Assembly: GCA_905221615.1 (NCBI GenBank)
Contig: CAJNDT010001278.1
Span: 1-64,000 of the forward strand
DNA: 64,000 bases
Reading direction: 5' to 3'
Source: Symbiodinium sp. CCMP2592
Taxonomy: Eukaryota > Sar > Dinophyceae > Suessiales > Symbiodiniaceae
In this document: in pieces, positions 32,385-58,275 of the stretch
How the letters are laid out: the number at the start of each line of letters is the position of its first letter
How positions within the stretch are numbered: the first letter of the stretch is position 1
The notes under the pieces: generated by a model
What the model was told of the DNA's origin: nothing
Seen by the model: only the letters and a program-made list of their open reading frames with translations
The model's database searches: none
Position numbers and translations under genes: made by a program

Positions 32385-32495
32385 TGGGTGGTTGTCAATA
32401 TTAGGGTCCCTTTTTGGGTCCTGATTATAATACGGCACCTACTATTTAGTGCACCCCAAAAGAGACCCTAATCTTGACAACTACCCATCTGTGCT
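32385..32495. mobile_element. foldback element family D
   Basis: Left arm CAGATCTGGGTGGTTGTCAA continues ATTAGGGTCCCTTTTTGGG; the right arm is CCCCAAAAGAGACCCTAAT followed by TTGACAACTACCCATCTGTG. The arms are about 40 bases with few mismatches, the loop about 35 bases. One copy in the window. Confidence 0.7.
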
Positions 32496-33885: not shown

Positions 33886-34012
33886 TGGGTTATATGGGAG
33901 TTTCCGAAAATAGGGGACCCCAATATTCCTAATCGAGTACCCTAAATAGTAGGATCCTGATTAGAAGGACCCCAAAATAAGGTACCCCTAAATTTCGGAA
34001 ACTCCCATATAA
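33886..34012. mobile_element. foldback element family B, copy 1 (near-perfect arms)
   Basis: Left arm starts ATATGGGAGTTTCCGAAAAT followed by AGGGGACC; right arm is GGTACCCCTAAATTTCGGAA followed by ACTCCCATAT. Arms are about 29 bases. The interior holds TAAATAGTAGGATCCTGAT. A lone right half (ACCCCTAAATTTCGGAAACT) lies at 34053-34075. Confidence 0.85.
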
Positions 34013-34240
34013 TCATTCTTATGGTAGCCCTTATAACCCTTATAGGAACCCTAGGTACCCCTAAATTTCGGAAACTCAGCTTGTCCCTCGCAGACTCGCA
34101 GAAAGAATAGAACCTCGCGAAACAGCTGGTCCCGGTTCCCGAAAAGCTCTATAGGGTTTAAGGCCAAGGGTGGCTGAGGCGATACGGCAATTACTGATGA
34201 GCGATTGGTGCAAGAAAAACGGCAGGCGACATGGACACTT

Positions 34241-37200: not shown

Positions 37201-40200
37201 TCTCCTGAACTGCATGGCAGCAACAGGAAGTCTACGTAAGTTCGGTGTCCCCACTTCCCGTCTACACTGTATGGGCGCAGCCCGAGAAGATCTGATAAAA
37301 AGTCAGAAACCGGCTTCAAATTTCCTGCGAGTCTCCGTCTCCAGAAACTTCTTCATACGCGCTTGCGCGATGCGTAGGAGTGTCCGCTCTGTTTCAAACG
37401 GCGTCGTCTCGTAGTGGTACTGAATCTCCACGTCGCTCTTGAAGCCAGTGACCTGGCGAATCTGGGTCTTTTCCTGCCTCCGCAAGGAAACTCAAACCTA
37501 TACAAGCCCAGGATATCCCAGGTTTCAACCCTCAAGTTTCAATTAGAATAAAAAGCCGTCAACCTACCAAAAAAAAAGGTTGGGCCCCCAAGAACACCTC
37601 TGTCCCAATCCACGCCATCCATCCCGTATCAAACTAGCTCGTCATCTTCGTCATGACGCCATGGGTGTCATTGTTGTCTATTACTACCATTATAAGTACT
37701 ATTACCTCTGCTCTTGGTATAACTTATACCCTAAACCCTATGGCTGTTTGTTGTTAAGCTTCTTACTGTGCTAGCTGGCCTCTCATGACTAGGGAAGGGA
37801 AGGTCAGAACCACAATCAGCACTGCACATCATCCGCGGCATACCACTACTTACGAAGGGAAGGAGGACAGTACGAACCAAAAAGGAAAAGCCTTGGACCC
37901 CAACAGGGTCACGCACACACACGCACACACATACATACATGCGTACGTACGTACATGCATACATGCATGCATACCTGCGTGCCTGCCTGACATGCATGCA
38001 TGCAGACGGGTGTGTATACACATACATATATGTGTATATGTATACATGCACACATATACATATATATGGTTGTGCACTGTGCGTTCTCGCCCCCCCCCCC
38101 CCCAATGGTATCCCCCCCACCTACACGGGCCTGAAGCCTCGAGGCAGGGCTTCCGTGTGAGCAATAAGCAAAATGTTCTAGGCAACACTCAGCAAGATTA
38201 TTGGTGTCCCAAAATATCCAAGAAAGACTATGTCAAATGCCTTAAAAAACGGGTTCCAGGCAATACTTTGTAACATGATTCACGTACCGAGGGGCTCTAA
38301 GCAAGGTTCTAATGTAAAAGTCGTAGTAAAGGGGTTCTAGGCAATACTTCGTCGGATTATTCGTGCAGTTAAGGGCTTCTAGGCAATGCTTCGTCAGATG
38401 ATTCGTGCAGTTAAGGGGTTCTCGGCAATACTTCGATAGAATATTCGTGCAGTTAAGGGGTTCTAGGCAATACTTCGTTAGATTATTCGTGCAGTTAAAG
38501 GGTTCTAGGCAATACTTCGATAGATTCGTCGTGCGATTAAGGGGTTCTAGGCAATACTTGGCTAGATAATTCGTGTTCCAAGGGGTAGTAGTTCACAAGT
38601 TCCAGGCCATACCCAGCCTTCGTCTGAATCATAGTAAAAGTGATCGAAGCAATCCTTACGAAGACTATTCGCCTTCCGAGGGGGTTGTAAGCAACTTGTC
38701 GTATGAATAGTAGTAAAAGGGTTCGGTGCAATACTCGCTAACCTTTCGTATGAGCAGTAGTAACAAGGTTCTTGGTGATGCTTAGTAAGATTATTCGTGT
38801 TGCGAGGGATTTTAAACAAAATTTGGTCAAAGCAATACAGGGTAATACGTGACTATGCCTGTTATGGAGGGCTCTAAACAAGGTTGCGCAAGGGGGGTGC
38901 TAAACAGGTTCTACGCAGTATTTACGATGACTACTGCTTAGAACCTGGGGGGCCCAGAAATTAGTAGCGCTTACATCATCAAATCAGAAAGTGCAAAACC
39001 CTTCTGCTATTAAAAAGCTTTAACAGCATGGCGCTCGCCACTGTTTCTTGCAGGAGCTACGAGTCCACAGCAGGCTGCTTTGCTCTCGCCATGCTCTTGG
39101 GCCTGCATGAAGGGGCCGTTTGCGTCGCCCGCGTCTGCGGAGACAGCTTTCGGGAGCAACTTCAAGTCGCCCTCGTGTCGGAGAAGGATGTCCCCTGTAT
39201 TGATGGCTTGAATTTTCACGATGCCCCCGTTGTTTTCAACTACTGTAAAATCCGGCGCTTTACCCTCGTTACACATGAATTTACCGCCACCGCTCTTGCT
39301 GGTGTACTGCGAATTCTTGGCTAGGACGCGATCGCCTGAGACTGGCACTATGTCCTGTGCTGCTCGTTTGCGCTTGCGGAAAATATCTTTCTTGAGAGCT
39401 GCACGCATGTGTGCATTCTCGACTGCAGCCTGAGTGGGCTGCAGTCGGCGATGGTACTCATCGGCGTGCTTCTGATAGTGGTCAGGGCCCAGATCCTCAT
39501 CCTTGTCCAAGAAATGAAACCATTCCTCATCTGCTATCTCCGTCTCTTTTGAAAGGATCTGTGGGAGGCCCACATTGCGCCAACCGGATTGCGGCTGTCG
39601 CATGACTCGCCACAGGGTCTCTGGTGCAACCCCAAATTTCCTCAAATGCGATTTGTTGTAAGCGAGAACCGCAGCAGGCAGGCGGGCACGGACCCCACCA
39701 TGTGCGAAGTCTAGCACCTTGTTCATACACTCTGTCAAGCCATTGGCTTGAAGGTGGCCAGGCGGGATTGTCCTGGTCCGTAGCCCAATCGCTTGCTCGA
39801 GTGCCTCGATGTCAGCCGTGTTTACTCAAAACACTGTTGTTCACTATAACTAGGCCGAGCGATAGGAATCGTTGCAGCGGGATTCGGTGCGCGCGGAGTG
39901 CAGCGAAAGTTCTGCGGAAGTTGGACCGCATTTTATGGAGGGGGTTGCAGGATGTATGGTTGAGACTCGAACGTTCTCAACTTAGTTGTGGCTTGAAGAA
40001 GTTGAAAGCATATGTGTATTAAAGTTAATTTTGTTGACCCGTGCCCCCGGGTGGTCTCACCACTTCACCCTGCCTGTAGAGGGTAAGAGTCAACAAAAAT
40101 CGCTAGAACCCAGAACCAGGAAACCATACCGCAGCCTACGCCCTAAAGCACCGCAGCCTAGACCCTAAAGTACATGTCACCAAAACCGATTTCGTTCGCC

Positions 40201-41456
40201 CGTGCCCCCGGGTGGTCTCACCATTTCACCCTCCCTGTAGAGGGCACGAGTGAAGATATCTTTACACCCGAGAATAGCTACGGGAATACAGGATGGAGGG
40301 GGTTGCAGGATGTATGGTTGAGACTCGAACGTTCTCAACTTAGTTGTGGCTTAAATTTGAAAGTATATGTGCATTAGGACTTAATTTGTTCACAAGTGCC
40401 CCCACGTGGTCTCACTATTTCACCCGCCCTGTAGAGAGCAAGAGTGAACAAAAATCACTAGAACCCAGCAAAAAACAGGTAGTATCCGACAGCGACCGAA
40501 AGTTCCTACCACCATGTGAGTAGGATACTCAGCGAAGTTCAGGCTCAAATTCCTTCCAGAAGAAAGAAGCGCTTAAACCGCACTGTGCATGCAGTGGAAT
40601 GCGAACGCTCGACCGAAATTCACGCTCTGCAGACACAAACAAAACCAGGTCTCCTGTGAGAGGTTCTGGTCACCCACTGATTGATTCGTCAGCTTAAGAC
40701 TGTCGACTTCACAAGCTTTCGACATGAGGGTTCAGAACACAAGGTTCAGCATGGATTGACTGATAAATGTTCCACAGTTCTACTTCCCCCCTGGCCCGCA
40801 CGCACAGTTGGAAATAGGGCAAACCATCCTGCTGCACAGGGGGGTGGGTGGGGGGGATAGAATGGCCATATATTCAGAAAGACATGGTGTGTGTGTGTGT
40901 ATGGCACAAGGGAAAACCATCTCGTTCCACAGTTCTACTTCCTCCCTGGCCCGCACGCACAGTTGGAAACAGGGCAAACCATCCTGTTCCACGGGGGGGG
41001 GGGGAGGGGGGATAGAATGGCCATACATTCAGAAAGACATGGTGTGTGGGTGTGTGTGTGTGGCAAAAGGGAAAACCATCCCGTTCCACAGTTCTACTTC
41101 CTCCCTGGCTCGCACGCACAGTTGGAAATAGGGCAAACCATCCTGTTCCACAGGGGGGGGGCGGGGAAATAGAAAAGGCAAACCATGCCGTTCCACAGGG
41201 GGGGGGCGGGGAGAGGGGGGGGGGAAATAGCGAAGGCAAACCATGCCGTTCCAAAGGAGGGGGGGCGGAGAGAACACACGTCCATTCCTTGGGCAAACAT
41301 ATACGAGTACATATAACAGGATACCATAGGGGGGAGGGGGCGGCCGCCGGGGTGCAACCATATATACATGCATACATACATACATACATATATGTATATA
41401 TAATTATATATACGTATACATATATACACCTGCAACGCATGCACACACACACACAC

Positions 41457-41492
<36 letters not shown>

Positions 41493-44400
41493 ACACGCAC
41501 GGAGATAAGGAGTCCATCAGGACAATTCCACTCGATTCCATTTCTAAATACGAGGTAGATCTTCGAGACCGTCCATAATCCTTAAAGACCGTCAACCTGT
41601 GGCAAGAACTGGCAGGATCAGACGCGACTGAAGCAAACATGTTGAATCTCACTGCTCCGATACACGATGGCAACAATGTACAGCGATAATTGTCACTCCG
41701 AATTGATCGAAACGGCAGGTACGTGAGCTAGGCGTCCCCAGCTCATATCAGTGATCTGTAACAGCCTCTTCGTTGGACCGTCACTGTTACAGACCAGACG
41801 GTCCCCCTGCCACAAATCCTGTATTGTTCCAGAAACCCTTAGCTTAGAATCAGGGTGTACACACACACACACACCCCTCCACAGAGGGGATAAGCGTCCT
41901 GAGGCTCGCTTTTTCTTCCTTAGTATGGTCATCGTCGTCATCGTCGTCGTCGGAGAGAAAAGGAGAGAAGGCGAGAAAAGAAGACGATAGCTCGGCTGAC
42001 AGACGACTAGAAAGAGGAAAGAGGGGGGAGAGAGCGAGAAAAGATGACGATAGCTCGGCTGACGGACTGAGAAGACAAGCGGTCCTTAGTCCCTGAAGGC
42101 AGTACTCACGGCTCCTTCTCTCTGCAACGGCTCCATGTTAACAGCGCGAAAGGTAGCTACAAACCGCAAAACAAGCCAAGATGCTGCCAGGTCCATTTAG
42201 GCCACGTAAGCCCATCACCTGACCAATCGGGGCACCATTGTTCCGATTGCTCGCTAGGAGCACTTAGACCCATCACCTGACAAGAAAGGGCCACTCTTTA
42301 CAATGCCTTTGCACTATTGACCTGTCCCGAAGGAGTACGGCCTGTTATGGTACCATCATGGGCCGCAAAACGTACCCTGGCAGTCCGCAGGAGCGGTTGT
42401 TGCCGTTGGCGACAAGGCCACACACGGAGATAAGGAGTCCATCAGGACAATTCCACTCGATTCCATTTCTAAATACGAGGTAGATCTTCGAGACCGTCCA
42501 TAATCCTTAAAGACCGTCAACCTGTGGCAAGAACTGGCAGGATCAGACGCGACTGGAGCAAACATGTTGAATCTCACTGCTCCGATACACGATGGCAACA
42601 ATGTACAGCGATAATTGTCACTCCGAATTGATCGAAACGGCAGGTACGTGAGCTAAGCGTCCCCAGCTCATATCAGTGATCTGTAACAGCCTCTTCGTTG
42701 GACCGTCACTGTTACAGACCAGACGGTCCCCCTGCCACAAATCCTGTATTGTTCCAGAAACCCTTAGCTTAGAATCAGGGTGTACACACGCACACACACA
42801 CACACACACACCCACACACGCACACACGCACACACGCACACACGCACACACGCACACGCACACGCACACGCACACGACTGCCTCTTTGAAGGGGCCCACT
42901 TGCTCGTGTAGCAGCTTGATCGTTTCCCGCAGGCGCGCTTTGGTGCCCAAGGTAAGCCGAGTCTTCAGATACCTTGGCTCTGGGTCCTGCCGCCACCCTG
43001 TAACAGTCTATATGGCGGGGTCATACTAAGGGCTATACACGATTATACTACAAATTACTACAATTACCCATCCTTGGCTCGCTGCCACCTCGAAAGGTTC
43101 TACTCTGATATGGGCTGCGGACGTAGGTATTGTTGCATCTTTAGTTCGCTAGCCAAAGCTGGTCGGCGAGCTGGACCCAACTCTGCAAGTTTTAGATTTC
43201 AGGTGTCCCCCCTCTCTGTGTCTCTAAGCCCATGCCGGCTTGTTCTGCAGAACCACAGGTCAACAATGCCCTCCAAGCCCTAAAGACCCACCGGCATTCC
43301 AACCTATGAGCCTTACCAGCCTTACTAACTAGAATAGGGTTTCAGGGTATGTTATCGTACTTATTGATCAACAAATTTTGAGGCCCCCATATCATCCCCC
43401 AGCCTTCCCGCTCAAGCGCTCAAGGCACGCCAAGTCACTCCAGCCGGGCCAGCCCCACCTTTAGGGTTTCGGCGCTCACACTCGGACAGTCCTTTAGGGT
43501 TTGGGGTTAAGGGTTTTTAGGGTTCATTGGAGTTGCAAACAAACACGCGGCCTCAATAGAGACTAGGTTCTTGTTTTGAAGCTCGAAGTTTGTTCAAAAA
43601 ATCTAGGACAATATGAATTCTGACTTTCTGTGGGGTCCTTTTTCGTCTAAGGACCACGAAGCAAGCTTCCCTACTTTTTCAACCCCACCTGCACTTTGGC
43701 CTGCGGTGTGCGAGCTCGTAGGCTGAAGATCTCTAGTACCTCCGTGGGTTAAGGTTTTGGGCTTCTTGGGGGTCAGGGGTTTTGAGGTTTTGGGTTTGAA
43801 ATCTCATCGGGGTGGTTCGGGCTTTTTGGGCTTCAAGGTTTCGGGTTTGGGGATTCCGTTTCTTTGGCTTCGGAATCTAAGAATTAGGGCTTAGTGGATT
43901 CTCTGGCTCTAGCTTTGGGGGATCATATTGGCAAGCATTCAGGCCGACAAATTGCTTCCGCTCCGGGCCTCTCTCTCTCTCTCTCTCTTTCTTTCGCCAG
44001 GGCTATGGGCAAGAGGTTTGACCCCCTTGCCCGCGCGCTCGTGCGCCCCCGACTGTTGGGAGGTGAGCATCGACAATCTGCTACCCCCGGCTCTTGCAAG
44101 TGGAAAAAGGAACTCGCATCGCTCAGCAACTGCAATTCGAGAAGCCACAACTAACGATCAGGGCCTGTAGTATGGCAATAACGAATAAAACTGCCTTGAG
44201 TTGCTGATTCGGGGATGTTCCCCGTGCAAGAAGTTCACATTTTGCCGGGTAAGAAAAGTGGGTCGGGTCGCAACAGAGCATGTATATAGGAGATGACAGA
44301 GAAGGGCAAAGCCTGGAAACATACTCACATACAACGGAGGGCAGACACTCGACCCTGGGGACGTCTCCCCGCGCTTGTCAAGGATACACATCCTTGTTCA

Positions 44401-45532
44401 AGGCCTTGCCTGGAACTTCCTGCTGCGTCCGCTATCGGGGGACGTCCCATGTAACAATAACATCCTTCCTGGAACTTCTGGACGGTGCAGCAAAATCACA
44501 ACCCTGGCGTACTCGTGACTGCATTTGTGTGTACTGTTCAATCTTTTCTTTGTTGATTCCTTCTCCTGGCCAGGCTAAGTAAAAAAGGAGATGCTGCGCG
44601 TGTAGATGCAGAGCTTGTAGTGGGCCCTGACAAGACCCCTCCACACCGAACTAGGCTTCTTGACTGGTCCCTTTTATGTTTGTACCGAAGTTGAATCGGG
44701 CTTGTGAGCGATCTTGTTGAAGCTTTCCACGTCATCGCGAGACACTGCATCATAGAGGACCCCTCCGCGCTCCTTGTAGATCAATCCGGCTTCTCCTTTG
44801 ATGAGCAGCGTTAGGTAGGGTGGCGACACTCTTCCATGATACAGGATAGCTTGAACCTCCGTCGCCACATCTGCCATGCTTGCATTTTTCATGAAGGAGT
44901 TCAAGACATGTGAGCTAGTTACGATGGCAATGCAGCGAAGCTTTCCATTGTTCGCGAGTTGTGATCCCTCTTCGATTGCTCTCTTGAGCTCGCCCGTGGT
45001 GAAGACCGGGTTGTCAAGTAGCACAATATCCTCATGTCGCATCGCCTCAACTGCGAAATTTTGCATTCGAGTGTTTCGATCGAATCGTCGCACCAAAGTC
45101 ATCCCATTTGCGAGGGCATCAGGAACTGCCTTGGAAATACGCGATGTGACCGCTAACTCAAGGGTAGCGTCTCGACCGATAGCTGTGCTTGAGGCGATTG
45201 CATTGATGACGTATTGCATACCACCGTTGTCACCCGGCTCGGCTTTTTCATCAACTTTTTGAGAGAGCTCCAGGGCCGCTTTCGCTAGTGCCAGAGTCAG
45301 GGCACCGCGCTCATCCTTCGACATCTGCTGCGTCACTTCAGCCAGAAATGACTCCGCCGTTGGGAGGTTGTCCTTTTCATGGACTTCGTCCTTGTTCCTT
45401 GATGCGTGCTTAGCGTAGACTCGTGCGAAGGAGGCAATCGCTCGGGCCCCTGACTGGCTAGACATCGCAGCAGAGAAGAGGCTGATCTCAAAGTTGCTGT
45501 TGATCTTGTCTGGGTGTGGCTTGAGCCAAAAT

Positions 45533-45567
<35 letters not shown>

Positions 45568-47414
45568 GGGCATAGGGGTCGGTTAGGACCCCCGGGCTTC
45601 AAGCCCACCCGCATGTTTGTTATGCGAGTTTTTTTTTGGGGGGGGCGGGGTGAGGAACGAGCATAAGTCCCCGGCAAGTGCTAAAGCTGAATAAATGCAA
45701 TGGAAACTAGTGGGAGGAATGTATACTCTCAAAGACAAGATCTCTCCCTCTCTCTGCCGTGCCATCATCAAGTGTCTCGCAATGCAAGGGCACGAAAAAG
45801 CAGGCCAGAATATCAGGAGGCATAGCTCAAAGACAAGATGTCCAACAGCAGTGTCTGTCTCTCTCTCTCTCTCTCTCTGTGTCTCTGTGTCTCTGTGTCT
45901 GTGTGTCTCTCTCTCTCTCTCTCTCTCTCTGCATCCAACAGGTCAACGACCGCAACCACGACCGACGCGCTTGCGATATGAGTTTAATGCTGTCAGTACT
46001 CTTCATAGAGAAGATGAATTTAATGGTCTGCTCTTACCATGGAAGTTTCTGGTTTGGAAACAGCGAGCTTGGGGCCATCATTTGAAGCTCAGTCAAAATT
46101 GAAATGCCAATGGAAAGTAAGTCCTCAACTGGCGACCCTGCTGCTGCGCACGAGAAGGTTGCACGCTATCAAAACTTGAGTCTCGTTAACCGTTAACTAA
46201 CACCGATAAACTTTATTTGGCAATCTGCAACTGCTCCGAGTCGCCAAGCGGTTGCGGTCGATGACCTGCACGAAGGCACTACGATTCAACATGCTTCAGT
46301 TTTAAGTTTCAAGCCGGTGAACTTGCTGGGTTTCCTAAGTCCTCAGCATTGCGCAAGCATCCGATTGGACCGGAGTGTGGAGTGTCAATGCCAAGATTTC
46401 AATATGGCCAACTTCCTCTCAAACAGGATTCAACCTTCTCAATCCTTGCGACTCAGCACCATGCGCTGCCTCTACAGAGGCCTTGCTGCCCCCTTTTGGG
46501 ACTGCCAAGCCCTGCTCACGCCGCTCGTTTGCGTCCCCTGCTGCCACGGCATTGTTGAATACCTGGACACACTCTTACTTTTTGCAGTTTCGGATTTGCT
46601 ATGACATGCAGATGGGCCAACTCAACGGGCCTTCGTGCTTTACGTTATGTAGCAGTACTCACAATACAAACTTCACTGAGCGACATCTTGCACAGCATGT
46701 TAGATGTGGAAAGTGCGCTTCTTGCTCGGCGGTACCCGACTCAAGGCCAAAGCTAAATGCAGAAGTATACATGCCAGACTACTATGCAGCACTATCGACA
46801 GATGGAATGGAAACAACGAAGCTTGAACAAGCATGAGCTTAGAGCTTCGGGAAGAACCGTCCCGAAGTTAAGTTCACTCAGACGGCAGGCTGGACCAAGC
46901 CCAAACCTACGCACACCCACAATCGAAACCGCGTGACGACCCCAGCGACAAGCCGAAACAGCCTCAACACTAATACCGTCCAGGTGCTGGCACGAACACC
47001 TATCCGCAATTTGATATTTTTGACACGCACACTCGGACAGCAGCAGGCAAGTTCTGCAACTTAACATTAAGGTAAGCTTCCGTCTCCAGATTGCGCGTCT
47101 GGTTCGGTGTCAGCGTCGTGTTGATGAAGACATAGCTACATGGATTCTCGGCCAAATACAAAGCCAGCTCGGTGACCTGGCGGTTTCCAAAAATAGAGAC
47201 CCCTGAAATAGTACCCCAAATAGTGGATCCTGAACATAAGGACTCCAACCTAAACAAGGTTCCCCTAATTTTCGGAAACACCCACCTTGCCCTTGCCGAA
47301 GAAGGTGTTTGGATCTATCTGCCGGACCTTCTGGATGCAAGTCTCTGCCCATTGTCTCTTCACCTTGCCGTTTTTCCAGGCCGCTTCATGTATGTCATAC
47401 TCGTCATCGCTCTC
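34241..47414 (-). CDS. hflX: HflX/GTPBP6-type ribosome-associated GTPase, multi-exon
   Basis: Exons in transcript order: 47286-47414, 47094-47176, (one or more unfound), 42879-42972, 37359-37452, 37126-37209, 36668-36703, 36061-36136, 35882-35989, 35736-35774, 35544-35616, about 34950-35038, about 34613-34668, and 34477 to an uncertain end at or above 34241. Family landmarks occur in order: RQIDPNTFFGKGK, YVFINTTLTPNQTRNLE, VPTIGIVGYTNAG with KTSLMNRLTDAG (P-loop, G1), RDLLFQTLDTTMRRVKLP (G2 region), ADSIGFIQHLPHNLFAAF (G3), DVLLHVRDIAHP, VWNKIDLL (NKxD, G4) and VPICAADGTGVDDLLHVLD (G5 region). HflX proteins bind the large ribosomal subunit and split stalled or immature ribosomes; eukaryotic ones usually act in organelles, but the N-terminus is not visible here. 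The central exons join with consistent phases. Donors are GT or GC; exons resume with G. Confidence 0.88.
35388..35408. repeat. (TA)n microsatellite in an HflX intron
   Basis: About ten TA units within the intron 35039-35543, which also holds TGCATG/TACATG-rich sequence. Confidence 0.9.
35544..37209 (-). CDS. hflX: HflX G-domain exon cluster (six exons)
   Basis: Exon lengths are 84, 36, 76, 108, 39 and 73 bases. Introns (in + coordinates) are 36704-37125 (GC-AG), 36137-36667 (GT-AG), 35990-36060 (GC-AG), 35775-35881 (GC-AG) and 35617-35735 (GT-AG). The P-loop GYTNAGKTS is itself split between the first two exons. All joins preserve frame and no in-frame stop appears, so this part of the gene looks functional. 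The short exons (36 and 39 bases) are easily missed by gene finders. Confidence 0.88.
37460..38165. other. HflX intron sequence, simple repeats and a C-run
   Basis: Contains ACACACACGCAC and TGCATGCATG-type repeats (37905-38065) and an uninterrupted run of about 15 C at 38089-38103. ORFs here are repeat by-products. Confidence 0.6.
38170..38830 (+). repeat. tandem repeat with 42-bp core period
   Basis: GGCAATACTTCG and close variants start at 38340, 38382, 38424, 38466, 38508 and 38550, exactly 42 bases apart. Each is followed by GATTATTCGTGCAGTTAAGG-like sequence. Flanking units on both sides (38178, 38250; 38606, 38730, 38775) are diverged and of different length. No coding meaning. Confidence 0.9.
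39010..39830 (-). mobile_element. LTR-retrotransposon integrase fragment
   Basis: The ORF is 39010-39738 and the frame stays open upstream to about 39830. That upstream part encodes RTIPPGHLQANGLTECMNKV, matching the H-x-Q-x-N-G-x-x-E signature around the third catalytic residue of retroviral-type DDE integrases. LPAAVLAYNKSHLRKFG follows as in integrase C-terminal halves, then a basic segment (FRKRKRAA) and a small beta-rich stretch (GDRVLAKNSQ, GDILLRHEGDLKLL). The first two catalytic Asp residues and the reverse transcriptase are absent, so this is a 5'-truncated relic in an HflX intron. No LTR was identified. Confidence 0.65.
39934..40112. repeat. SINE-like repeat copy 1
   Basis: Starts ATGGAGGGGGTTGCAGGATG; includes GAGACTCGAACGTTCTCAAC, TGCCCCCGGGTGGTCTCAC and ends CAACAAAAATCGCTAGAACC. 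A close second copy lies at 40290-40469 and a partial one at 40170-40289. The minus strand contains GTTCGAGTC, like a tRNA B box, but no complete tRNA-like promoter was found. Confidence 0.7.
40290..40469. repeat. SINE-like repeat copy 2
   Basis: The first 60 or so bases are identical to copy 1; the rest differ by small changes (ACGTGGTCTCAC for CGGGTGGTCTCAC). Ends CAAAAATCACTAGAACCCAG. Confidence 0.7.
40760..41280 (+). repeat. G-rich tandem repeat, unit 155-159 bp, with G runs
   Basis: CCACAGTTCTACTTCC recurs at 40772, 40927 and 41086. Each unit includes GCAAACCATCCTG, a long G run, GATAGAATGGCCATA and a (TG)n tract. After 41150 only the G-run part is repeated, twice. Many runs of four to twelve G on one strand could form quadruplexes. 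Confidence 0.9.
41350..41500. repeat. (TACA)n, (TA)n and (CA)n microsatellites
   Basis: Successive simple repeats: CATACATA to about 41425, then (CA)n with CG interruptions to about 41500. Confidence 0.95.
41499..41875. repeat. direct repeat, copy 1 (about 370 bp)
   Basis: Starts CACGGAGATAAGGAGTCCAT and ends AGAATCAGGGTGTACACAC. Nearly identical to 42423-42795; the differences I noticed include GAAGC/GAGC near 41630 and CTAGGC/CTAAGC near 41727. Offset is 924 bases. (CA)n lies at the left edge of copy 1 and at the right edge of both copies. Confidence 0.93.
42423..42795. repeat. direct repeat, copy 2 (about 370 bp)
   Basis: Partner of 41499-41875. The 550 bases between the copies contain a duplicated GACGATAGCTCGGCTGAC motif (41982 and 42047) but no integrase, reverse transcriptase or clear primer-binding site. 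A (CA)n/(CG)n tract follows to 42874. Confidence 0.93.
42879..42972 (-). CDS. hflX: probable middle exon of HflX
   Basis: A 94-base stretch encodes YLKTRLTLGTKARLRE and continues IKLLHEQVGPFKEA. It is preceded by acceptor AGCCAAG and followed by donor GTCGTG. It would join in phase 0 to the exon starting VTGFKSDVE at 37452. Its position matches the region between the N-terminal domain and the helical linker in HflX. The assignment rests on position and phase rather than a strong motif. Confidence 0.55.
43318..43394. mobile_element. foldback element family A, copy 3
   Basis: GCCTTACTAACTAGAATAGG and GTTTCAGGGTATGTT at the left, TTTTGAGGCCCCCATAT at the right. Confidence 0.6.
43400..44670. other. 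no supported gene; (CT)n tract and TTTAGGG-like words
   Basis: TTTAGGGTTTCGG, TTTAGGGTTTGGGG and similar words at 43460-43530; (CT)n at 43970-43990. Short ORFs only. Confidence 0.4.
44674..45465 (-). CDS. intronless 263-aa protein behind a spliced-leader relic (retrogene)
   Basis: ATG 45465 (MSSQSGARAIASFARVY) to TAA at 44674-44676, uninterrupted. I chose this start because the sequence upstream is a 54-base leader directly preceded by the spliced-leader relic; the longer open frame to 45573 only reads through that relic and a (CT)n tract. The protein is soluble-looking, mixed alpha/beta: KAALELSQKVDEKAEPGDNG, MQYVINAIASSTAIGRDA, LRCIAIVTSSHVLNSFM, YLTLLIKGEAGLIYKERGG. I see no signal peptide or membrane segment and do not recognise the family. 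No poly(A) remnant was evident within 100 bases of the stop. The gene lies inside the large HflX intron on the same strand, consistent with insertion of a reverse-transcribed mRNA. Confidence 0.75.
   Translation of the reverse strand: MSSQSGARAIASFARVYAKHASRNKDEVHEKDNLPTAESFLAEVTQQMSKDERGALTLALAKAALELSQKVDEKAEPGDNGGMQYVINAIASSTAIGRDATLELAVTSRISKAVPDALANGMTLVRRFDRNTRMQNFAVEAMRHEDIVLLDNPVFTTGELKRAIEEGSQLANNGKLRCIAIVTSSHVLNSFMKNASMADVATEVQAILYHGRVSPPYLTLLIKGEAGLIYKERGGVLYDAVSRDDVESFNKIAHKPDSTSVQT
45520..45536 (-). other. relic of the dinoflagellate spliced leader
   Basis: On the minus strand this reads AGCCATTTTGGCTCAAG, identical to the last 17 bases of the 22-nt leader that is trans-spliced to dinoflagellate mRNAs. 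The missing five bases are replaced by an (AG)n tract. The leader should not be encoded in front of an ordinary gene, so its presence marks a former mRNA copied into DNA. Confidence 0.88.
45537..45567. repeat. (CT)n microsatellite
   Basis: About 15 CT units abutting the spliced-leader relic. Confidence 0.95.
45855..45932. repeat. (TC)n / (TG)n microsatellite
   Basis: TCTCTCTCTCTC blocks separated by TGTGTCTCTGTG-type variants. Confidence 0.95.
45940..47090. other. no supported exon, HflX intron
   Basis: At least one HflX exon, covering the segment after NQTRNLE, should lie between 47094 and 42972. I could not find it in this stretch. Confidence 0.4.
47177..47285 (-). mobile_element. foldback element family B acting as an intron (candidate introner)
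   Basis: On the sense (minus) strand the exon ends GGCAAG; the intron starts GTGGGTGTTTCCGAAAATTA followed by GGGGAACC, and ends GGTCTCTATTTTTGGAAACC followed by GCCAG. The two ends are inverted repeats of family B type, and their splice sites coincide with the element ends. Splicing joins FFGKGK to VTELALYLAENP, as expected for HflX. AGGT stands at both junctions, compatible with a target duplication supplying a splice site. Length is 109 bases. Confidence 0.85.
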
Positions 47415-48012
47415 CTGCACGGCGATGAAAGGTTACCCTACAACCTTCCGCTTCTGGCCATGCCTCGTGGCATTGAAATCTCAGTTTCGCAGCTGGGCTC
47501 TTAGCGTCAGCCACCAATCCGAAAAAACCCTAAAGATCCTCTCGAAAGGCGAACCCTGAGATCGCCCAAATCAATATGCAGGGGCCTGAATATGGCTTGG
47601 GCTATGCTAGACATTGGGGCCGCAAAGCATGTACTATATTGCAATTATTTAGAACCCTACGGTACCATCTTTGGTCTCCTCCTCTCCGCGGTCGAGGTGC
47701 CAGCCTTTCCAACAAGCTCGGGAGCGCGGACGTCTCAACAACTGCAGGTGCCTTCATATTCCGTTTGGGGGTGTCGACATAAGTCCCAGGCACTCGGGTA
47801 CAAAGAATCGTACCTGCTGCAAGCCCCAAAACCTCAAGACCCCGAGAAGAGCATACACCCCGCATGAACCATGTAACACCAGTGTGCATAAGTACATGTA
47901 CAAGGATGTGTGTGGGCAACCCACCTAGAGAAGAACCTCAAATCTGCACACTTACATACCCTATAAAGAGCAGCCCTAAACCCCAGACCCTGTAGACCCT
48001 ATAGACCCTAAA

Positions 48013-48113
48013 CTGTGCCTTAGTAATTAGAATAGGTTTTTCGTGCATACTATACTATATAGTTATAATAAGGAGCCCCAAAATAGTATAGGTAATTCAT
48101 TCAGGCCAATGTG
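48013..48113. mobile_element. foldback element family A, copy 4
   Basis: TGCCTTAGTAATTAGAATAG on the left, ATAATAAGGAGCCCCAAAAT inside, TTCATTCAGGCCAATG on the right. A CCCTAAACCCTAAACG word follows at 48134. Confidence 0.65.
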
Positions 48114-48261
48114 CAGTGCGTTTATCTTTCCAGGTAAACCCTAAACCCTAAACGCGAAGCTCTCTCCAGGAACTCCCGGCGGCTTGAGCCTTCAGGCGCC
48201 GACCAGGCACCCGAGGCCTGGCGTCGAAGCAGGTCCTCGCGATGAGATCCCCTAATGTAGA

Positions 48262-48362
48262 GCCTTACCCTAAGGCCCTAAGGCCCCCAAAGTAGTTCCT
48301 TTTTGGGGGATATATAAAATGCTATAAGGTCATCCCAAAAAGGAACTACTTTGGGGCCTATG
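48262..48362. mobile_element. foldback element family C, copy 1
   Basis: Left arm GGCCCCCAAAGTAGTTCCTT followed by TTTGGGGGAT; right arm ATCCCAAAAAGGAACTACTT followed by TGGGGCC. The arms of about 30 bases are almost perfect around a loop of about 30 bases. Confidence 0.85.
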
Positions 48363-48445
48363 GGTAATAATTAGAATAGGGTCTTGGTGGTGCCTTATTT
48401 TGATTTTAGGAGCATATGCCCCCAAACCCTATTCTAATTATGAAG
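48363..48445. mobile_element. foldback element family A, copy 5, abutting family C
   Basis: TAATAATTAGAATAGGGTCT at the left is inverted as AAACCCTATTCTAATTATGA at the right. The element starts directly where the family C copy ends. Confidence 0.75.
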
Positions 48446-49655
48446 GACACTACAGTACGGGATCTCGGTTACGGGCTTGAGCGGACGGGGTTTAGGGGTT
48501 TCAGGGTTCAGGGGGTTTAGGGGTTTAGGGCTTTTCCCCTCTCACATGGCTAGGGATCTACTGCTCGGACGTTCCAGGCAAGGCATGTGTCGTTTGCATG
48601 TTTCGGTTCAAACCGTGAACCTAGTAACTTTTGGGTGCGGAGGAAGGAGTTCGGATTTTGTGGAGACGATCCAGGCACTGGACTTGGCCTACTGCTAAAG
48701 TGCTGCTAAACAGGCGGATGAAACCGTCGAGCTCAGTGAGTTGAAACTCAATGCTGAGCTAGATTTCAGCTCAGGGTCAAGAGTTCCGGCTTTAGCTTGA
48801 CATGACCTGGTTCTCTCTGTCGCTCGCATGGCTCGGACTTCAAGATTCTAACTAGTACGAACCAGGAAGCTCCTTCCTGCTTTACTGAACCTCCACAGGT
48901 CGCTTAAACTCCGAATTGAGGGACTTGGCTTCTCTGACTCTGCCTGTCTTAGATGCCTTTCATTTCTTCATCCCTGAACCCAAAAGGCATATGAACCCAA
49001 GCGTTAAACACGTAAAACGGCAACATGTGTTCCCATGCTGCCCTCTGAGCACCGCCACCCAGCGTCTGCCTCTAGTGAACAGCCTTAAGCGACACCTGCG
49101 GTATCCAGCTCCTAGGTGTGCTGGAAGACACCTTGAACCCTGATGTCCTGAAAGCCCTAAACTTGTGCAAAATCCCATCAGCCCCTTTGCATCCAGGCCT
49201 ATTACGACTGCCGGGTACCCCTGAAGAAAAGAAACTGAGGGCCACCCAAGAGCCCTGGAAGCTTCCAACTCGAAGAAACCAAGCGCACTTAGTATTAATA
49301 TTCTTCATATTCATAACTATTCATAACAATAACAATGGCGTGCCATGTGGGTGACAAAAAAATTATTAAGACCAAGTCACTTCTGCCTCAGCAGCCGCAA
49401 AAGCCTTGACAAGGAAGTGATGGCGTAGCACAGACAAAACGACGACGGGTTTAGAGCCTCTTCAAGCCTCCCACTTCGCGAGGACGAGCCCGCATGGCAG
49501 GGTTAGACAAGTCGGACAAGGAACGAGATTCACGTTGTGACTTTGTGCAAAACTAGAGCTTCCGAACTTCGAGGATCTTACCCACACCCTTCGCCAGTTG
49601 CCACCAGGTTTTGGAGTTGGGCAGATTATGGAGATTTATGGGTTCAGGGTTCACG

Positions 49656-49752
49656 ATTTCCCAGAGGCCCATTAGTAGTTCCTTTTTGGGATCACCTTAT
49701 AAACTTCTACATATGAACCCCCAAAAGGAACTAGTATGGTGCCCATGGGTAC
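49656..49752. mobile_element. foldback element family C, copy 2
   Basis: GGCCCATTAGTAGTTCCTTT then TTGGGATCACCTTATA at the left; CCCCCAAAAGGAACTAGTAT then GGTGCCCATGGG at the right. Confidence 0.75.
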
Positions 49753-49759
49753 CGCAGAG

Positions 49760-52110
49760 GGCTCAAAGGTTCAGCTTGCAGGGTTGTTGGTGATTGCCCT
49801 GTTTGCTTGCTCAGCTATAGTGTAAACTGTGGGGCACAGCCGGTCTCGGGCTGGTCCTGCGGATATCACCAAACTATATACTCAACAGTGTTTGATAGTA
49901 TTCGCAGGGCTCTTTAGCCGGAACAGACAGGCCGTTTGCAGAAGGTCACCACTGGTGTTGAGATCTGTTGCCCGAAGAGCCGGCAAAGCAGAATCTCTTC
50001 CAATAACAACTCTCGATTCCCCAGACCTACATGAACAAGACTAACAAGACTAGTCGTACTACTTGTACTACTATCACCAGTACCATTTTTTTGCACCATC
50101 AGTACCGCTAACCCCGAATGCCCGCAGACGCGGCCCCGCTAGCAAACCTCACTCCACCTCAAACCCTAAACTACTTTAAACCCTTTTGCCTTCTTCCCTA
50201 AAGCCCTAAACTTTAGCCCCAAACGCTGAAACCCTTGCACCCTGAACTTTAAGCTCTTTTTTCCATCATGCCTTGTGCAATCGCCTGCACGTCTGAGCAA
50301 CACGGAAGCGCTCATGACTGATCTTCCATGCCTTGCTCAAAACCCCGCAGGGACAAACTCGAAAACCCAAACAACCCCAAAACATCCCGAAACCATGAGC
50401 ACCACATAGCACCACCCTTGCTTCCAAGGGGCCTCGTGGTCCCAGCCCCCAGAAGGCTCGCCGTTTGGTCCTTTGCAGGACACGGCGTGTCTCAGTTCCA
50501 TGGAGCAGGCAGAAGACCCAACGTGGAGTACCAGGTGAACCGTTGCCAGGCCCGTTTTGGCTGTGAGAAAGAACTTCTCCCTGCAGAGCATGGCATCATC
50601 GTGCTGCTGGGGCTGAAACGTCCAGGCATGATTACGCATTCCTCGCTCCCGGGCCCCAAAAATGTGCCCAAAACCCGCGGCTTCATGGCACAGGGGTTTA
50701 GGATGATTCTGCTGAAGCTCTCTATATGTTGATGTTAGTTACTAAACCCTGCGCCCTCAACCCCAGAGCATCATCGCTGAGCACCCTGGGCACAGAGCCC
50801 ACCTGGCAGTAAGTCCCATCGGTTGGCTCTCGCCAGGCCCAGTGCCTTCGAAGGAAGGTTCATGAATCTAACTAATAGCCTTGCGGCGCAGAACCGCCGC
50901 GTGCAACATAACTAATATATGGCATGTGTATGCATAAAGATATACCAGTAGTAAGGTATGTATACATATTTGTCCTATGGAACGGATGGTATAAGATATA
51001 AGATGACATAAGAAAGGCGATAAAACATGATAAACACTATGGTGAGCCCTATAAGGGAGTTTGAGCTTTTTGCTGGATTCCCGTTCCGTCTGCCAGGTTG
51101 GGTCGTATTTTGCCTCCTCCTTCTTGTGCTAAACCCTAAACTTAAAGCGAAACTGTCTTCCCCTTCAGGGATCCGTCTGACCGGAACTGTGCCAGGCTAC
51201 TTGTACCTACCAATGTTGGTAAAGATCGTTTGCTTTTCCTGTGCTTCTTTGGGAGTTCTGGGTCGGTTTCGGCAGTTGAGCACTACACTCTAAGTCATAT
51301 ACCGTAGGATCTAAACCTTACTTGAGAACACTCTTGCAAAACATACGGTCTGCTCTGAGAACAGGTGCAAGCTGTTTTCCTCCTCGAACGAAGACTGGCA
51401 GTCTGTAGCAATTGCGTCCTGCCATGTAGGGGGCTTCAAAAAGTCGCGCGATCGATGATATCTCAACAAGTCCTCCGCGACAGAATCAAGCCTTTGGAGC
51501 CCCTCTATTCTGCATCCGGGCGCGCTAAGGCCGTGCTTCCGAAAGGAAAGCCGCTGAAACAGGTGCTAAAGACCTGCTGTGCCCAGTGCCCGCCAAAGCC
51601 CCAGAGGCAAGAGCAAAGGTAAAGCGAAAGAAAACACACACTGACATGCAATGCCAAGCTGTAACAAGCTGTTACTCATGGACTACCACGCTTTCGCTTC
51701 TCTGCGCCTCGGGGAATGCTTGGAACTTCAATGAATTCGCGAAGCAAATTCGGGATGCAAAGTAGAGGCCACAAACTTGGAAGGTAGAACAACGCAGGTA
51801 GTACGTTTCATGTCCCAATGTGATGGATATGTGCATGAATGGGGTGCTTTCTGGCTTCTACTGTACAGCTCCAGCTCTGTGGCACGATAACGGCAAAACA
51901 CCCATCTGTGGTGTCGAGCTGCTTGAGGAAGTCATGCAAGGCTGTTAACCGAATCGTTCCAGGAGTTGTGTTCCAACTTGTCCATGGCACGATCAATGTA
52001 TTTGCCTCATGTTGTGCTCTCATGCAGAAAGATCTCCGAAGCTTTCCCTAAGTGCTCGGATTGCAATGCTCGCGGCGTATGAGGACACGACTGCTCGAAT
52101 CCAGTCGGGT
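49760..52110. other. no supported gene
   Basis: Many short ORFs on both strands without recognised motifs. CCCTAAACT-like words at 50165-50250. The + ORF at 50328-50732 and its minus counterpart are of doubtful coding value. Confidence 0.35.
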
Positions 52111-52114
52111 GCCC

Positions 52115-52519
52115 TCATCTCGGCCAAAAGGCCTTCCAAGTCTCGACCTTTCCTATCCTTGCAAGTCGGGTTAGCCCCAGGAGCAGGAGTTTAACCATGC
52201 GCCAGTCCTTCTTCTGAGCTGCCTTGTGCAGCGGGTACGTGCGCTGGAACCCAAATGCATGCGTCTTCGGCGTGTTCAGGTCCAGATCCTCACGGCAGTT
52301 GCTGAAGCCGTGCATCCTTAAGAAGTCCAATACGTCGGACTTGGAGTCAGCCAACTGCCATCTTTCCATGCGGCGAAATGTGCCGTCTCGATGCTTCTTC
52401 GCTGCCTCGAGGGCAGCGGCCACCGCCACAGCCCCGAAGCAGCTTCTGAATTCATCATCTGCCTCCAGCTTGAAGCGGCCGCCGATCTTCTGAAAGACGA
52501 GGTTTGAGGCGAAGGCCAT
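52115..52519 (-). CDS. ankyrin-repeat protein exon
   Basis: ORF of 134 codons from ATG 52519. The N-terminal half (FQKIGGRFKLEADDEF, AAALEAAKKHRDGTFRR) is not recognised. From about residue 66 it reads DVLDFLRMHGFSNCREDL and then YPLHKAAQKKDWRMVKLLLL, which is the first helix pair of an ankyrin repeat (PLHxAAxxxDxxMVxLLL). The exon probably ends near 52175, just after LLL, since the remaining residues (TRLARIGKVETWK) do not continue the repeat. Further repeats would be on exons at lower coordinates, which I could not locate. Ankyrin repeats mediate protein binding; a partner cannot be inferred. Confidence 0.6.
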   Translation of the reverse strand: MAFASNLVFQKIGGRFKLEADDEFRSCFGAVAVAAALEAAKKHRDGTFRRMERWQLADSKSDVLDFLRMHGFSNCREDLDLNTPKTHAFGFQRTYPLHKAAQKKDWRMVKLLLLGLTRLARIGKVETWKAFWPR

Positions 52520-52807
52520 GAGGCCACGAGCCGCGCTTGGCGAGGTGAGATGAGCTTGAGAAACAAAAACCTGCGAGCGGCGACAAAGGCCCTCTTCGGT
52601 GCCCTGGCACAGAAACTTGTCGGGGCACTTCTCAACCTAGAAGCTATCAGCACCTATCGTGAAGGCACATATGGGGCCCTAGCGGCCTCTGTATCGGGTA
52701 TGAGCTCTCACCAGCATTCCCTTTATTTCGTTACCCACATGTGGTCAGGTCACCCTGTCCACACACATCCACACACTGATGCATAAGTTTGCACATGTAT
52801 ATATACA

Positions 52808-52810
52808 TGA

Positions 52811-52845
<35 letters not shown>

Positions 52846-52860
52846 CATATACACACACAT
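52808..52860. repeat. (TA)n microsatellite
   Basis: TATATATATA runs followed by CACACATGCA-type repeats. Confidence 0.9.
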
Positions 52861-52869
52861 GCATAAACA

Positions 52870-55010
52870 TAGGCATGCATGTGCACATACAAACACATGT
52901 ATGTGGGTAGGTATGGTCACAGCTGCCTGTGATCCACCCAGCCTGTTCCTCTATCTTTGCATGCTGTCTTTTCGACAAAGGACTATCGGTGTTCATAGTG
53001 CTTGTTCGGTGCACCAATACTTTCCTGTACTTCTTTTTTGTTGCGTGTACTCATTGGGGTCTGATGGCGGTTTGTGACATGTGGACTGGAAAGCATTCGA
53101 CGAAGCAACACTACCCTGCTCATCTAAAACCGACAACACAAAGTTCTGGGTAGTTCGTGGTGTGCTCCTCGTTTTAGTTCGAATTCTCTCATTGCAGAGA
53201 AACAAGAAGGCGCCTTCAGCCATTGCCAGTGGAGAGAACAACACAGACTTCGCATGGTATTACCAAAATTACCATTTGTAGCTGGAGAAAAGATTAACCT
53301 GAGCACATACATACCTGCTGCTCCTTCCATTGTATCTTAAACACATTCGATAACGTCGCGCGTTCAAAACGGAACTAGAAGAAATGCTGTTTTTTCCATC
53401 TCATCTGCACTAGTAACAGCAGCAAGCATAATGACAGCGTGCCAGCAACAAGAATAAGAAACGACGTGCTACTACTTTCCTACTTTCTGTGAAAGAGGCC
53501 TCCTCAGCATCCCAGAGGATTTGTTGCCAAGGTTTCCCCCAGCCAGCAGCGCCGGCCGTCAGAACGGGATGGATGACCACCTTATGTGGGTACGATTGTG
53601 TTGGCAAGGGAAACAGTAACAGCGCAGCATTCCCTGCCAATGCTTTCTTCTAATCCGAGGCACAGCTTGTGGTTTTGGGCCATGCAAGCGGAAAGCCAGG
53701 GTGTCCTGGTGCAGGTGACCAACTCATGTCGCAGAACCGGCAGAGAAACACAAAGCTGACCACGCCCTTCGACGACGACAACGACCACGACCAGCACGAC
53801 GGCAACCATCATCTTGTTCATCTTCACCAGGGGAGGCATCATCATCTTCTTCAGCAGTAGCACTATCAACATATTAGTAACATATTCGCCATCGTCATTT
53901 AAGCTCTGTGTCGTTTACAGATCTGAACATGCCTTTCGGTTGCAACATATGCTGTGCGAAGCCCCTAGCCCTCAAACGCTAGCGGAAACCCCAACTCGCG
54001 TCCTCGTACGAGAAGTGCCGCCGGCCGACCACCGACAACCGCCAAGTGGTGCAGCGCAGGCCAAGCACAGCTCGCATCTGGGTTGGTGCTTGAGGCGGTC
54101 TACTCAATGCAGGCCCTTTCTCCCAGGGTAGCTTCTGTGTGGGAGATGTGTGTAAAACTGCAGCAAAGCTTGCTCCTTACGGCTGCCAACAAGGCGAAGC
54201 CTGAGCATGGCTGACCCAATGTGTTCCAGAGGGGAAGCTGTCGCTACTGCATTCGTCGACAACGCATCTTTCGAGCACTGATTATGAGTCTTTTGTCGAC
54301 CTGCAGCGGCCTGTCCTAGTGCATCGATCAGCTATTGATCCGAAGCAACAACGATTCGAACATGGCCATGATATGTAGTGTGGAGCCTGTTCGATTCGCA
54401 GCAAAAGAAAGACTGAGAACCACATCAAAAAACGAACAATGGCAATCAGAAGCATAAGAACCATGATCGCTGATCTACTCTCTGGCTGCTTGCTCTCCTT
54501 TTCAACATCTCCCATGGTTCCACTCCGTCCTACGCCTCTACACTGCCTAACCCCCTTTTTAAGCACACAACCCTAAACCCAGCCAGCAGGACGAGCTCCT
54601 TTGCAGAACCTTGCCATTCGCCGTGTCTTCCCTGAAAGGCAGAAGGAGTAGCTGAGATGTCTTGCAGGCTTGGGACCACGTTTTGGCTCCAGGTGCACAG
54701 AGCTTGAACGGGGGGGGTGGGGGTAGCGCTCTGAGGCACGGACCAATTCTGCGCGAGCCTGGCTTCTTCTCTACAGTTCTCACAGGCATTCCCTATGGTT
54801 TAACAGAGGGTACCGAAACGAGCACCAAGTGCTGTTCATACTGTCAGCGCCCTCTGGCCCCGAAAAGCTAAGCCAGGGAACTCCCATGCTCCTTCATTCA
54901 GATCCAGACTTTTTGTTAAAGCAGGGCTACCCCCCTCCTTCGACCCTGAGCTCATATCCAGACTAATGTTACGAAGGTTCTCACGAGCACCACCTTTGCA
55001 AGCACATCTC
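52870..55010. other. no supported gene
   Basis: Low-complexity minus-strand frame at 53582-53872 (Val/Met-rich, from a GAC/ACC-type tract). A minus-strand ORF at 54282-54566 has one hydrophobic stretch (MVLMLLIAIVRFLMWFSVFL) that could be a membrane helix, but nothing else supports it. A G run lies at 54710. Confidence 0.35.
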
Positions 55011-55016
55011 TCAAAA

Positions 55017-55133
55017 GGAGTTTCCGAGGATGGGGTTCCCTGATATACTACCTGGTTACCTTAAATAGTAGGATCCTTATAATAAGGACGCCAAGAGAAG
55101 GTATCCCTCGTTTTGGGAAACTTCCATATGACT
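55017..55133. mobile_element. foldback element family B, copy 4
   Basis: GGAGTTTCCGAGGATGGGGT at the left, TATCCCTCGTTTTGGGAAAC followed by TTCCATAT at the right, with TAAATAGTAGGATCCTTAT inside. Confidence 0.75.
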
Positions 55134-55140
55134 CAAACCA

Positions 55141-55253
55141 TTTGGGAGTTTCCGAAAATGAGGGGTACCTGATTTTGGGGTCCTTATGATAAGGATCCTA
55201 CTATGTAGGGTAGTAGATTAGGGTCCCCTATTTTCGGAAACCCCATTTGGCAC
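55141..55253. mobile_element. foldback element family B, copy 5, opposite to copy 4
   Basis: GGGAGTTTCCGAAAATGAGG at the left, CCCCTATTTTCGGAAACCCC at the right. CCATTTGG is present at both outer edges. The interior carries ATAAGGATCCTACTATGTAG, the reverse of copy 4. Confidence 0.8.
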
Positions 55254-58144: not shown

Positions 58145-58275
58145 CTGTGCAAAGCTGTCAGGTGTCCCTACTTGGAAGTTCATGGGTAGCTATAAGTGGA
58201 GTTATGAGGTCACTATAATTATGACCTACATTAGGGGACTTTTAACACCGCTCATAAGTACCCATGAACCTCCAA
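58145..58275. mobile_element. foldback element family E
   Basis: CTACTTGGAAGTTCATGGGT followed by AGC at the left, ATAAGTACCCATGAACCTCC followed by AAGTA at the right. An inner TTATGAGGTCACTATAATTA is self-complementary with its neighbour ATGACCTACAT. Single copy here. Confidence 0.65.

Follow-up and report, generated by a model that had tools for sequence, protein, structure and literature searches.

A short inverted-repeat element as the probable origin of a complete predicted intron in a Symbiodinium HflX gene

Can a short repeat that enters a coding sequence become, with nothing added but the duplication of its target, a complete intron? The question is raised by an HflX gene in a stretch of 64,000 nucleotides of Symbiodinium-type dinoflagellate DNA, the whole of which was analysed and is called the window below. 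An earlier note had reported a 109-base intron in this gene at 47177..47285, bounded by the inverted arms of a foldback repeat family, family B, and both the coordinates and the arms proved correct. We put at about 0.9 the probability that this intron is an introner derived from a short, non-autonomous (MITE-like) DNA element with terminal inverted repeats (TIRs), which inserted in the HflX coding sequence and duplicated the target AGGT.

The HflX gene and its 109-nt intron

Spliced alignment gave a complete model of HflX on the minus strand, with 25 exons and an open coding sequence of 605 codons (605 aa). The product contains the Pfam domains GTP-bdg_N and MMR_HSR1, and 171 of 175 residues are identical to those of an HflX fragment from S. 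necroappetens. The accepted model has 24 introns, namely the focal one and 23 others, of which the shortest is 74 nt. The alignment script had proposed a 25th intron of 42 nt (34366-34325), which was dropped, the frame staying open through that segment; counts over 25 introns in this text include it, counts over 24 exclude it, and it was left out of the terminal-repeat test as being shorter than 60 nt. The coordinates of the features discussed are collected in Table 1.

Table 1. Positions of HflX, of the focal intron with its parts, and of related repeats in the window
Feature	Position	Strand	Description	Basis
HflX gene	34241..54077	-	Start codon 54077; stop codon 34241	tblastn with ten homologs, spliced alignment, open coding sequence, Pfam domains
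Focal intron	47177..47285	-	109 nt, GTGGGT...CGCCAG, phase 0	Gene model, homolog alignments, stop on retention
Inserted element (family B copy)	47179..47283	-	105 bp; tips GGGTGTTTCC / GGAAACCGCC, 8/10 complementary	Profile match; tips and flanks
Left AGGT copy	47284..47287	-	AG, exon end; GT, predicted splice donor	Tips and flanks
Right AGGT copy	47175..47178	-	AG, predicted splice acceptor; GT, exon start	Tips and flanks
Family B, 33.9-kb copy	33896..34006	-	Downstream of HflX stop codon; tips GGGAGTTTCCGA matching 12/12; duplication ATAT/ATAT	
Family B, 55.15-kb copy	55144..55244	+	Upstream of HflX start codon; duplication ATTT/ATTT; right tip one base short	
Family B, 55.02-kb copy	55016..55125	-	Upstream of HflX start codon; tips eroded; duplication not intact (ATAT/TTTG)	
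Partial family B arm	34038..34077	-		nhmmer E=5.5e-05
Diverged relative (32.4 kb)	32386..32486	+	Tips GGGTGGTTGTCA / GGGTAGTTGTCA; duplication ATCT/ATCT	nhmmer E=7.5e-05 and 6.1e-06; scan for inverted tips and duplication
Other HflX intron	43459..43688	-	AGGTGGGG repeated at its two junctions; weak candidate for an earlier insertion of this type	

The focal intron lies between exons 9 and 10, between the HflX codons for ...FFGKGK and VTELAL..., and has canonical GT-AG splice sites in the gene model. Excision of the 109 nt restores the frame and yields the 605-codon open reading frame, while retention brings translation to a stop at codon 175. The protein alignment is ungapped across the junction in all seven homologs aligned there, which were picked from 120 listed, and a separate homolog alignment at the junction gave weak support. 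With the frame restored and no gap against the homologs, the predicted splicing keeps the coding message unchanged at the level of the sequence, and the sites at 47285 and 47177 are probably those used by the spliceosome. Among the 24 HflX introns of at least 60 nt, a clear terminal inverted repeat is confined to the focal intron, where none of 300 shuffles did as well; for the next-best intron the figure was 16 of 300. Predicted folding of the focal intron as RNA pairs its two ends, at -35.8 kcal/mol (z -2.14; 5 of 200 shuffled sequences did as well). This foldback follows from the inverted repeats and was not counted as evidence; a role for it as the key to splicing was set aside on the same ground.

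A profile built from the three family B copies outside the coding sequence, with the HflX copy left out, matches the focal intron with E=1.1e-16 over profile positions 2-107, which upholds the claim that a single family copy makes up the whole intron. Its arms are GTTTCCGAAAATTAGGGG at 47279-47262 and CTATTTTTGGAAAC at 47196-47183 on the minus strand, and the former has six matches in the window at no more than three mismatches, against 0.04 expected by chance. The tips of the element are of the GGG...CCC type, the outermost ones of the HflX copy being imperfect (GGGT/CGCC). The element extends beyond the arms described in the earlier note, its limits being 47179 and 47283. The splice sites had been said to coincide with the element ends; they are near them, lying 2 bp outside, within the target duplication. 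Thus 105 of the 109 nt are element, and the other four are the GT and the AG contributed by the AGGT duplication. With so small a remainder an earlier intron is not needed. Transposons are frequent in introns and HflX has 23 others, so that the element could in principle have entered an ordinary intron, the rest of which was later lost; but the four remaining nucleotides are exactly half of each direct-repeat copy and the smallest other intron has 74 nt, a double coincidence that makes such a history very unlikely.

Copies of family B and the duplications at their ends

Family B has four full-length copies in the window, at 47279-47183(-), 34002-33900(-), 55148-55241(+) and 55121-55020(-), and these are 75-89% identical in pairwise comparison, so that they do not represent a fresh burst. 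Terminal inverted repeats are seen in the family at the 33.9-kb tips as well as in the focal intron. Of the four copies, one alone forms an intron in a recognised gene. The other three, which the earlier note had called intergenic, do lie outside the HflX coding sequence, in DNA where UTR, intergenic sequence and an intron of another gene are not distinguishable. A scan demanding both inverted tips and a 4-bp target-site duplication (TSD) recovered one of the four copies and the diverged relative, and missed the focal copy. Pattern searches for further copies returned 1, 0, 1 and 116 stretches in viral contigs (80 of the 116 listed) and 0 in genome contigs; since a profile search of 118 records, with the E. 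coli record left out, found no family B element at E 0.01 or better, the viral matches look like chance. A further comparison showed an 18-base match in L002. A pattern search for a relative's DNA matched 38 genome-contig and 8 viral-contig stretches, none of which encodes a relative.

Perfect 4-bp direct repeats stand at the GGG/CCC-type ends of the HflX copy (AGGT), the 33.9-kb copy (ATAT), the 55.15-kb copy (ATTT) and the 32.4-kb relative (ATCT). The constant length is therefore found in three of the four family B copies, one of them with a missing tip base, and in the relative, and is absent at 55.02 kb; every intact duplication reads ANNT. The element ends were set after the flanks had been inspected, and only one of 81 end choices tested in the HflX copy gives a repeat of at least 4 bp, the 33.9-kb copy also having one there; for a random pair of sites, the probability of a chance match is 0.0085 with two right offsets allowed. 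When the ends are set as in HflX, two of the three other family B copies have a perfect 4-bp duplication and the third has none. A longer repeat, CCATTTGG, is also available at the 55.15-kb copy. This 8-bp reading was not adopted, since the TGG and CCA within it correspond to tip sequence in the other copies and since the 4-bp reading suits three of the four copies.

The presence of AGGT at both junctions had been taken earlier as a suggestion that a target duplication supplied a splice site. This idea gains from the duplications at two of the other copies, and AGGT in itself is a weak argument that we rejected as stand-alone proof, junction repeats of at least 4 bp being common in HflX. They occur in 12 of 25 introns versus 171 of 600 mismatched donor/acceptor pairs, with a mean shared run of 3.44 versus 2.90, and both groups alike are inflated by the spliced-alignment script, which rewarded an AG preceding the donor and a G following the acceptor, and also favoured acceptors followed by G. 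Such frequencies would suit the view that AGGT is simply the usual AG|GT...AG|G exon context and that the element came in otherwise, for instance by reverse splicing of a spliced-out copy. Copies between ATAT, ATTT and ATCT, however, cannot be GT-AG introns, yet their ends, set in the same way, are flanked by duplications that are likewise 4 bp long; reverse splicing leaves these unexplained, while the inverted repeats suit a DNA transposon, and we therefore give this view little credence. Origin of the intron through tandem duplication of exon sequence bounded by AGGT, of which AGGT at both ends is said to be the usual sign, deserves practically no weight, since what the intron matches is not a copied exon segment but a repeat family that recurs at other places in the window. 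The best reading of the duplications is that family B duplicates ANNT and that an AGGT target alone would supply both donor and acceptor.

A model for the origin of the intron

In the preferred reading, the element would have inserted in an HflX coding sequence reading ...GGCA AGGT CACC..., and the ancestor was probably intron-less at this site. Insertion would duplicate the 4-bp target, the left copy becoming exon-AG|GT-donor and the right copy acceptor-AG|GT-exon, and the spliceosome would then cut out GT, element and AG and restore the original message exactly. The GGG...CCC tips would lengthen the splice sites, the typical family form being GTGGG(A) / (C)CCAG and the form here GTGGGT / CGCCAG. 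Either orientation of the element should work, because the tips are inverted repeats. At ATAT or ATTT in family B, or at ATCT in the relative, no GT-AG pair would arise and the copy would remain an ordinary MITE. Movement of the element was presumably due to a transposase acting in trans.

A wider reading, which we hold tentatively and at somewhat less than even odds, is that family B is a general MITE and not a dedicated intron-maker, with a palindromic ANNT target and a 4-bp duplication. It would then turn passively into a perfect intron at any target that happens to read AGGT, whichever way round the element lies, since the duplication by itself provides the two splice sites and the GGG/CCC tips lengthen them. 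Many of the AGG(T) repeats at Symbiodinium intron ends, such as those of the HflX intron at 43688-43459, could be fossil traces of this process. The junctions of that intron share 8 bp exactly, or 10 matches with one mismatch; it matches the family B profile at E=0.066 only, and its terminal inverted repeat, equalled in 168 of 300 shuffles, is not significant.

Relation to known introners

Introner gain in dinoflagellates was already known, and the novelty attached to the present case in the earlier note was overstated, since introners with 4-bp TSDs and TIRs have been published for Symbiodinium microadriaticum (Gozashti et al. 2022, PMC9860276). As far as the text and legends cited here describe them, these resemble the HflX element in genus (by protein similarity), size, TIRs, 4-bp TSD and TSD-derived donor; the example in the Fig. 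2B legend, which spans 86725-86839 (115 bp), has its own 3' splice site, whereas in HflX the donor GT and the acceptor AG would both come from the TSD (PMC9860276). Family B may already be catalogued among the published families, with which it is compared here by description. In a survey of Symbiodiniaceae genomes, 3.2-6.3% of genes are reported to contain introner elements (PMC10522408). Polarella glacialis is credited with 12,253 introner-made introns, 15 families having at least 100 introns each (Roy et al. 2023, via PMC11453091); these dinoflagellate introners and the HflX element are likened by description, as introner-made introns. The introner elements of Amoebophrya likewise have inverted repeats near the intron ends, fold back, and show direct repeats of 3-5 nt across their boundaries (Farhat et al. 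2021, PMC7789003). In the account cited they were defined within the set of non-canonical introns, and family-specific inverted-repeat motifs were not found for them, whereas the HflX intron belongs to a recognisable family and is GT-AG in the gene model, with no non-canonical splice site (PMC7789003).

Family B is like MITEs in being about 100 bp long, with TIRs, a TSD and a foldback structure, and too short to encode a transposase; unlike them, it yields a complete predicted spliceosomal intron where it has an AGGT target. The TIR introners of Micromonas and Aureococcus, studied by Huff and colleagues in 2016, are reportedly DNA-transposon-like, with a TSD that contributes to the splice sites. 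They belong to other lineages than the Symbiodinium HflX element, and one Aureococcus introner has an 8-bp TSD (Fig. 2F legend, PMC9860276).

The general phenomenon being published for Symbiodinium, the advance made here is one of mechanism and detail, not of discovery. Within about 21 kb, family B is present as ordinary repeats flanked by duplicated ATAT or ATTT and as a complete predicted intron with AGGT, cause beside product, and the step of intron birth appears unusually clear at the HflX locus. A simple rule is thereby offered, in which elements target ANNT and the AGGT subset would give rise to introns, so that introners may arise without splice sites of their own. If family B is indeed a general MITE, many of the AGG(T) repeats at Symbiodinium intron ends would be the fossils of past insertions.

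HflX gene model and the focal intron

The window derives from the nuclear genome of a Symbiodinium-type dinoflagellate, and its HflX protein matches an HflX fragment of Symbiodinium necroappetens at 171 of 175 residues; the best of the matches listed include named proteins from Durusdinium trenchii, Prorocentrum cordatum and Polarella glacialis. We placed the exons by tblastn with ten homologs as queries, and spliced alignment gave 25 introns, of which one of 42 nt was removed because the frame stays open through its sequence. The protein carries the Pfam domains GTP-bdg_N (E=6.8e-16) and MMR_HSR1 (E=1.5e-14), together with a GTP-bdg_M match under the curated cut-off. Donors are GC in 12 introns, GT in 8 and GA in 4, in agreement with Symbiodiniaceae donor usage as given in a review (PMC11453091). 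A G directly follows the acceptor in 24/24 introns, a count affected by the preference that our alignment script gave to such acceptors.

The length of the focal intron is not divisible by three, and its retention leads to a stop at codon 175. The junction between FFGKGK and VTEL lacks an insertion in all seven HflX homologs aligned across it, which were selected out of the matches listed (at least 120); two of the seven, P0004 and P0005, are encoded by 520 and 513 codons, respectively, on contigs roughly 1.8 kb long. HflX chains of solved structures span the junction weakly (best E=0.07). Of the 24 HflX introns of at least 60 nt, none has a terminal inverted repeat as strong as that of the focal intron (score 12, equalled by 0/300 shuffles); for the next best, 16/300 shuffles were as good.

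Coordinates of HflX, family B elements and neighbouring features
Feature	Position	Strand	Remarks
HflX final model	54077-34241	-	ATG to stop; 25 exons, 24 introns; unbroken 605-codon frame
HflX introns (24)	54002-34478	-	final gene model
Focal intron	47285-47177	-	109 nt, GTGGGT...CGCCAG, phase 0; from spliced alignment
Intron with repeated junctions	43688-43459	-	AGGTGGGG at both junctions
HflX copy	47179-47283	-	flanks AGGT/AGGT, duplication
33.9-kb copy	33896-34006	-	flanks ATAT/ATAT, duplication
55.15-kb copy	55144-55244	+	flanks ATTT/ATTT, duplication if one base is missing in right tip
55.02-kb copy	55016-55125	-	flanks ATAT/TTTG, without duplication
32.4-kb relative	32386-32486	+	flanks ATCT/ATCT, duplication
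Partial arm	34038-34077	-	
299-aa ORF	45573-44674	-	intronless; in HflX intron 46244-43740
Spliced-leader match	45535-45520	-	overlaps 299-aa ORF
242-aa ORF	39738-39010	-	in 5.4-kb HflX intron 42881-37453
134-aa ORF	52519-52115	-	in HflX intron 53499-50846
Overlapping ORFs	26375-19423	-	1347 and 1060 aa
Other foldbacks	48285-48356, 49660-49749, 58169-58278		different sequence

Family B copies and their target duplications

The earlier note held that the whole focal intron is an element of the foldback family B, and a profile made without the HflX copy bears this out by recovering it at E=1.1e-16. The same profile also matches the partial arm and the diverged 32.4-kb relative. The four full-length copies in the window share 75-89% pairwise identity. 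The copies at 55.15 and 55.02 kb are found roughly 1 kb upstream of the HflX start codon, and the copies near 34 kb, the partial arm included, at most 0.35 kb downstream of its stop codon. The arms described earlier are present, but the tips reach four bases further (GGGA...TCCC in the best-preserved copy).

AGGT does occur at both focal junctions, as had been put forward as a sign of target duplication, but it says little alone because junction repeats of at least 4 bp are common, being found in 12/25 HflX introns (before pruning) versus 171/600 mismatched donor/acceptor pairs. What carries weight is that in other copies these ends are likewise flanked by duplications, at sites where a GT-AG intron is impossible. 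All four intact duplications have the form ANNT, a candidate target rule that rests on five elements from one window, with ends set after inspection of the flanks. In the HflX copy, 1/81 end choices gives a repeat of at least 4 bp; in the 33.9-kb copy two do, one of them identical to the HflX choice. For a random site pair with two right offsets allowed, the chance match rate is 0.0085. Scanning the window for 4-bp duplications with inverted tips (10-of-12) gave 13 matches, whereas five shuffled windows gave 2, 1, 5, 2 and 1. The 33.9-kb copy and the 32.4-kb relative, both seen earlier by profile search, were among the 13; the focal copy and the two copies at 55 kb, which have less perfect tips, were not.

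Intron 43688-43459 has an 8-bp exact junction repeat (10 matches with one mismatch), a length reached by 2/600 control pairs. It shows no significant inverted repeat, and the family B profile reaches only E=0.066. It is possibly an older introner insertion, which is suggestive at most since 25 introns were tested.

Other features in and near HflX

The 299-aa ORF, on the same strand as HflX, has no matching Pfam family. Overlapping it is a 16/16 match to the end of the dinoflagellate spliced leader, an apparent relic of it; together they resemble a processed mRNA that was trans-spliced, then retrocopied into the genome, where it is nested in the intron. By eye, the 242-aa ORF resembles a retroelement integrase region (Pfam search without match), and the two long overlapping ORFs a LINE-type endonuclease/reverse transcriptase element. 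The 134-aa ORF has a weak ankyrin-repeat match under the curated cut-off (E=0.0086). Of the other short foldback elements, 48285-48356 has 23-nt arms with 100% complementarity.

Relation to known introners

That introner-type intron gain is known in dinoflagellates, as the earlier note stated, agrees with PMC9860276, PMC10522408 and PMC10666404. Elements of this kind are thus already known: they are described in Amoebophrya (PMC7789003), reported in Prorocentrum cordatum (PMC10666404), and present in 3.2-6.3% of genes in the Symbiodiniaceae examined (PMC10522408). Listings of openly available papers on introners, and on MITEs in Symbiodinium, together with excerpts of some of them, showed neither family B nor an ANNT target rule; family B may already be catalogued.

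The probable course of events is that the element inserted at GGCA-AGGT-CACC and duplicated AGGT, giving AG/GT-element-AG/GT; the spliceosome could then excise GT, element and AG, and AAGGTC would be restored. Only the element's GGG and CCC-type tips adjoin the splice sites. In the S. microadriaticum introners described by Gozashti et al. 2022 (PMC9860276), which have TIRs and 4-bp target duplications, the 5' splice site is supplied by the duplication and the 3' site by the introner itself; the paper also mentions cases where the duplication or neighbouring exon provides all or part of both sites. Unlike the published example with its own 3' site, the HflX element brings neither GT nor AG.
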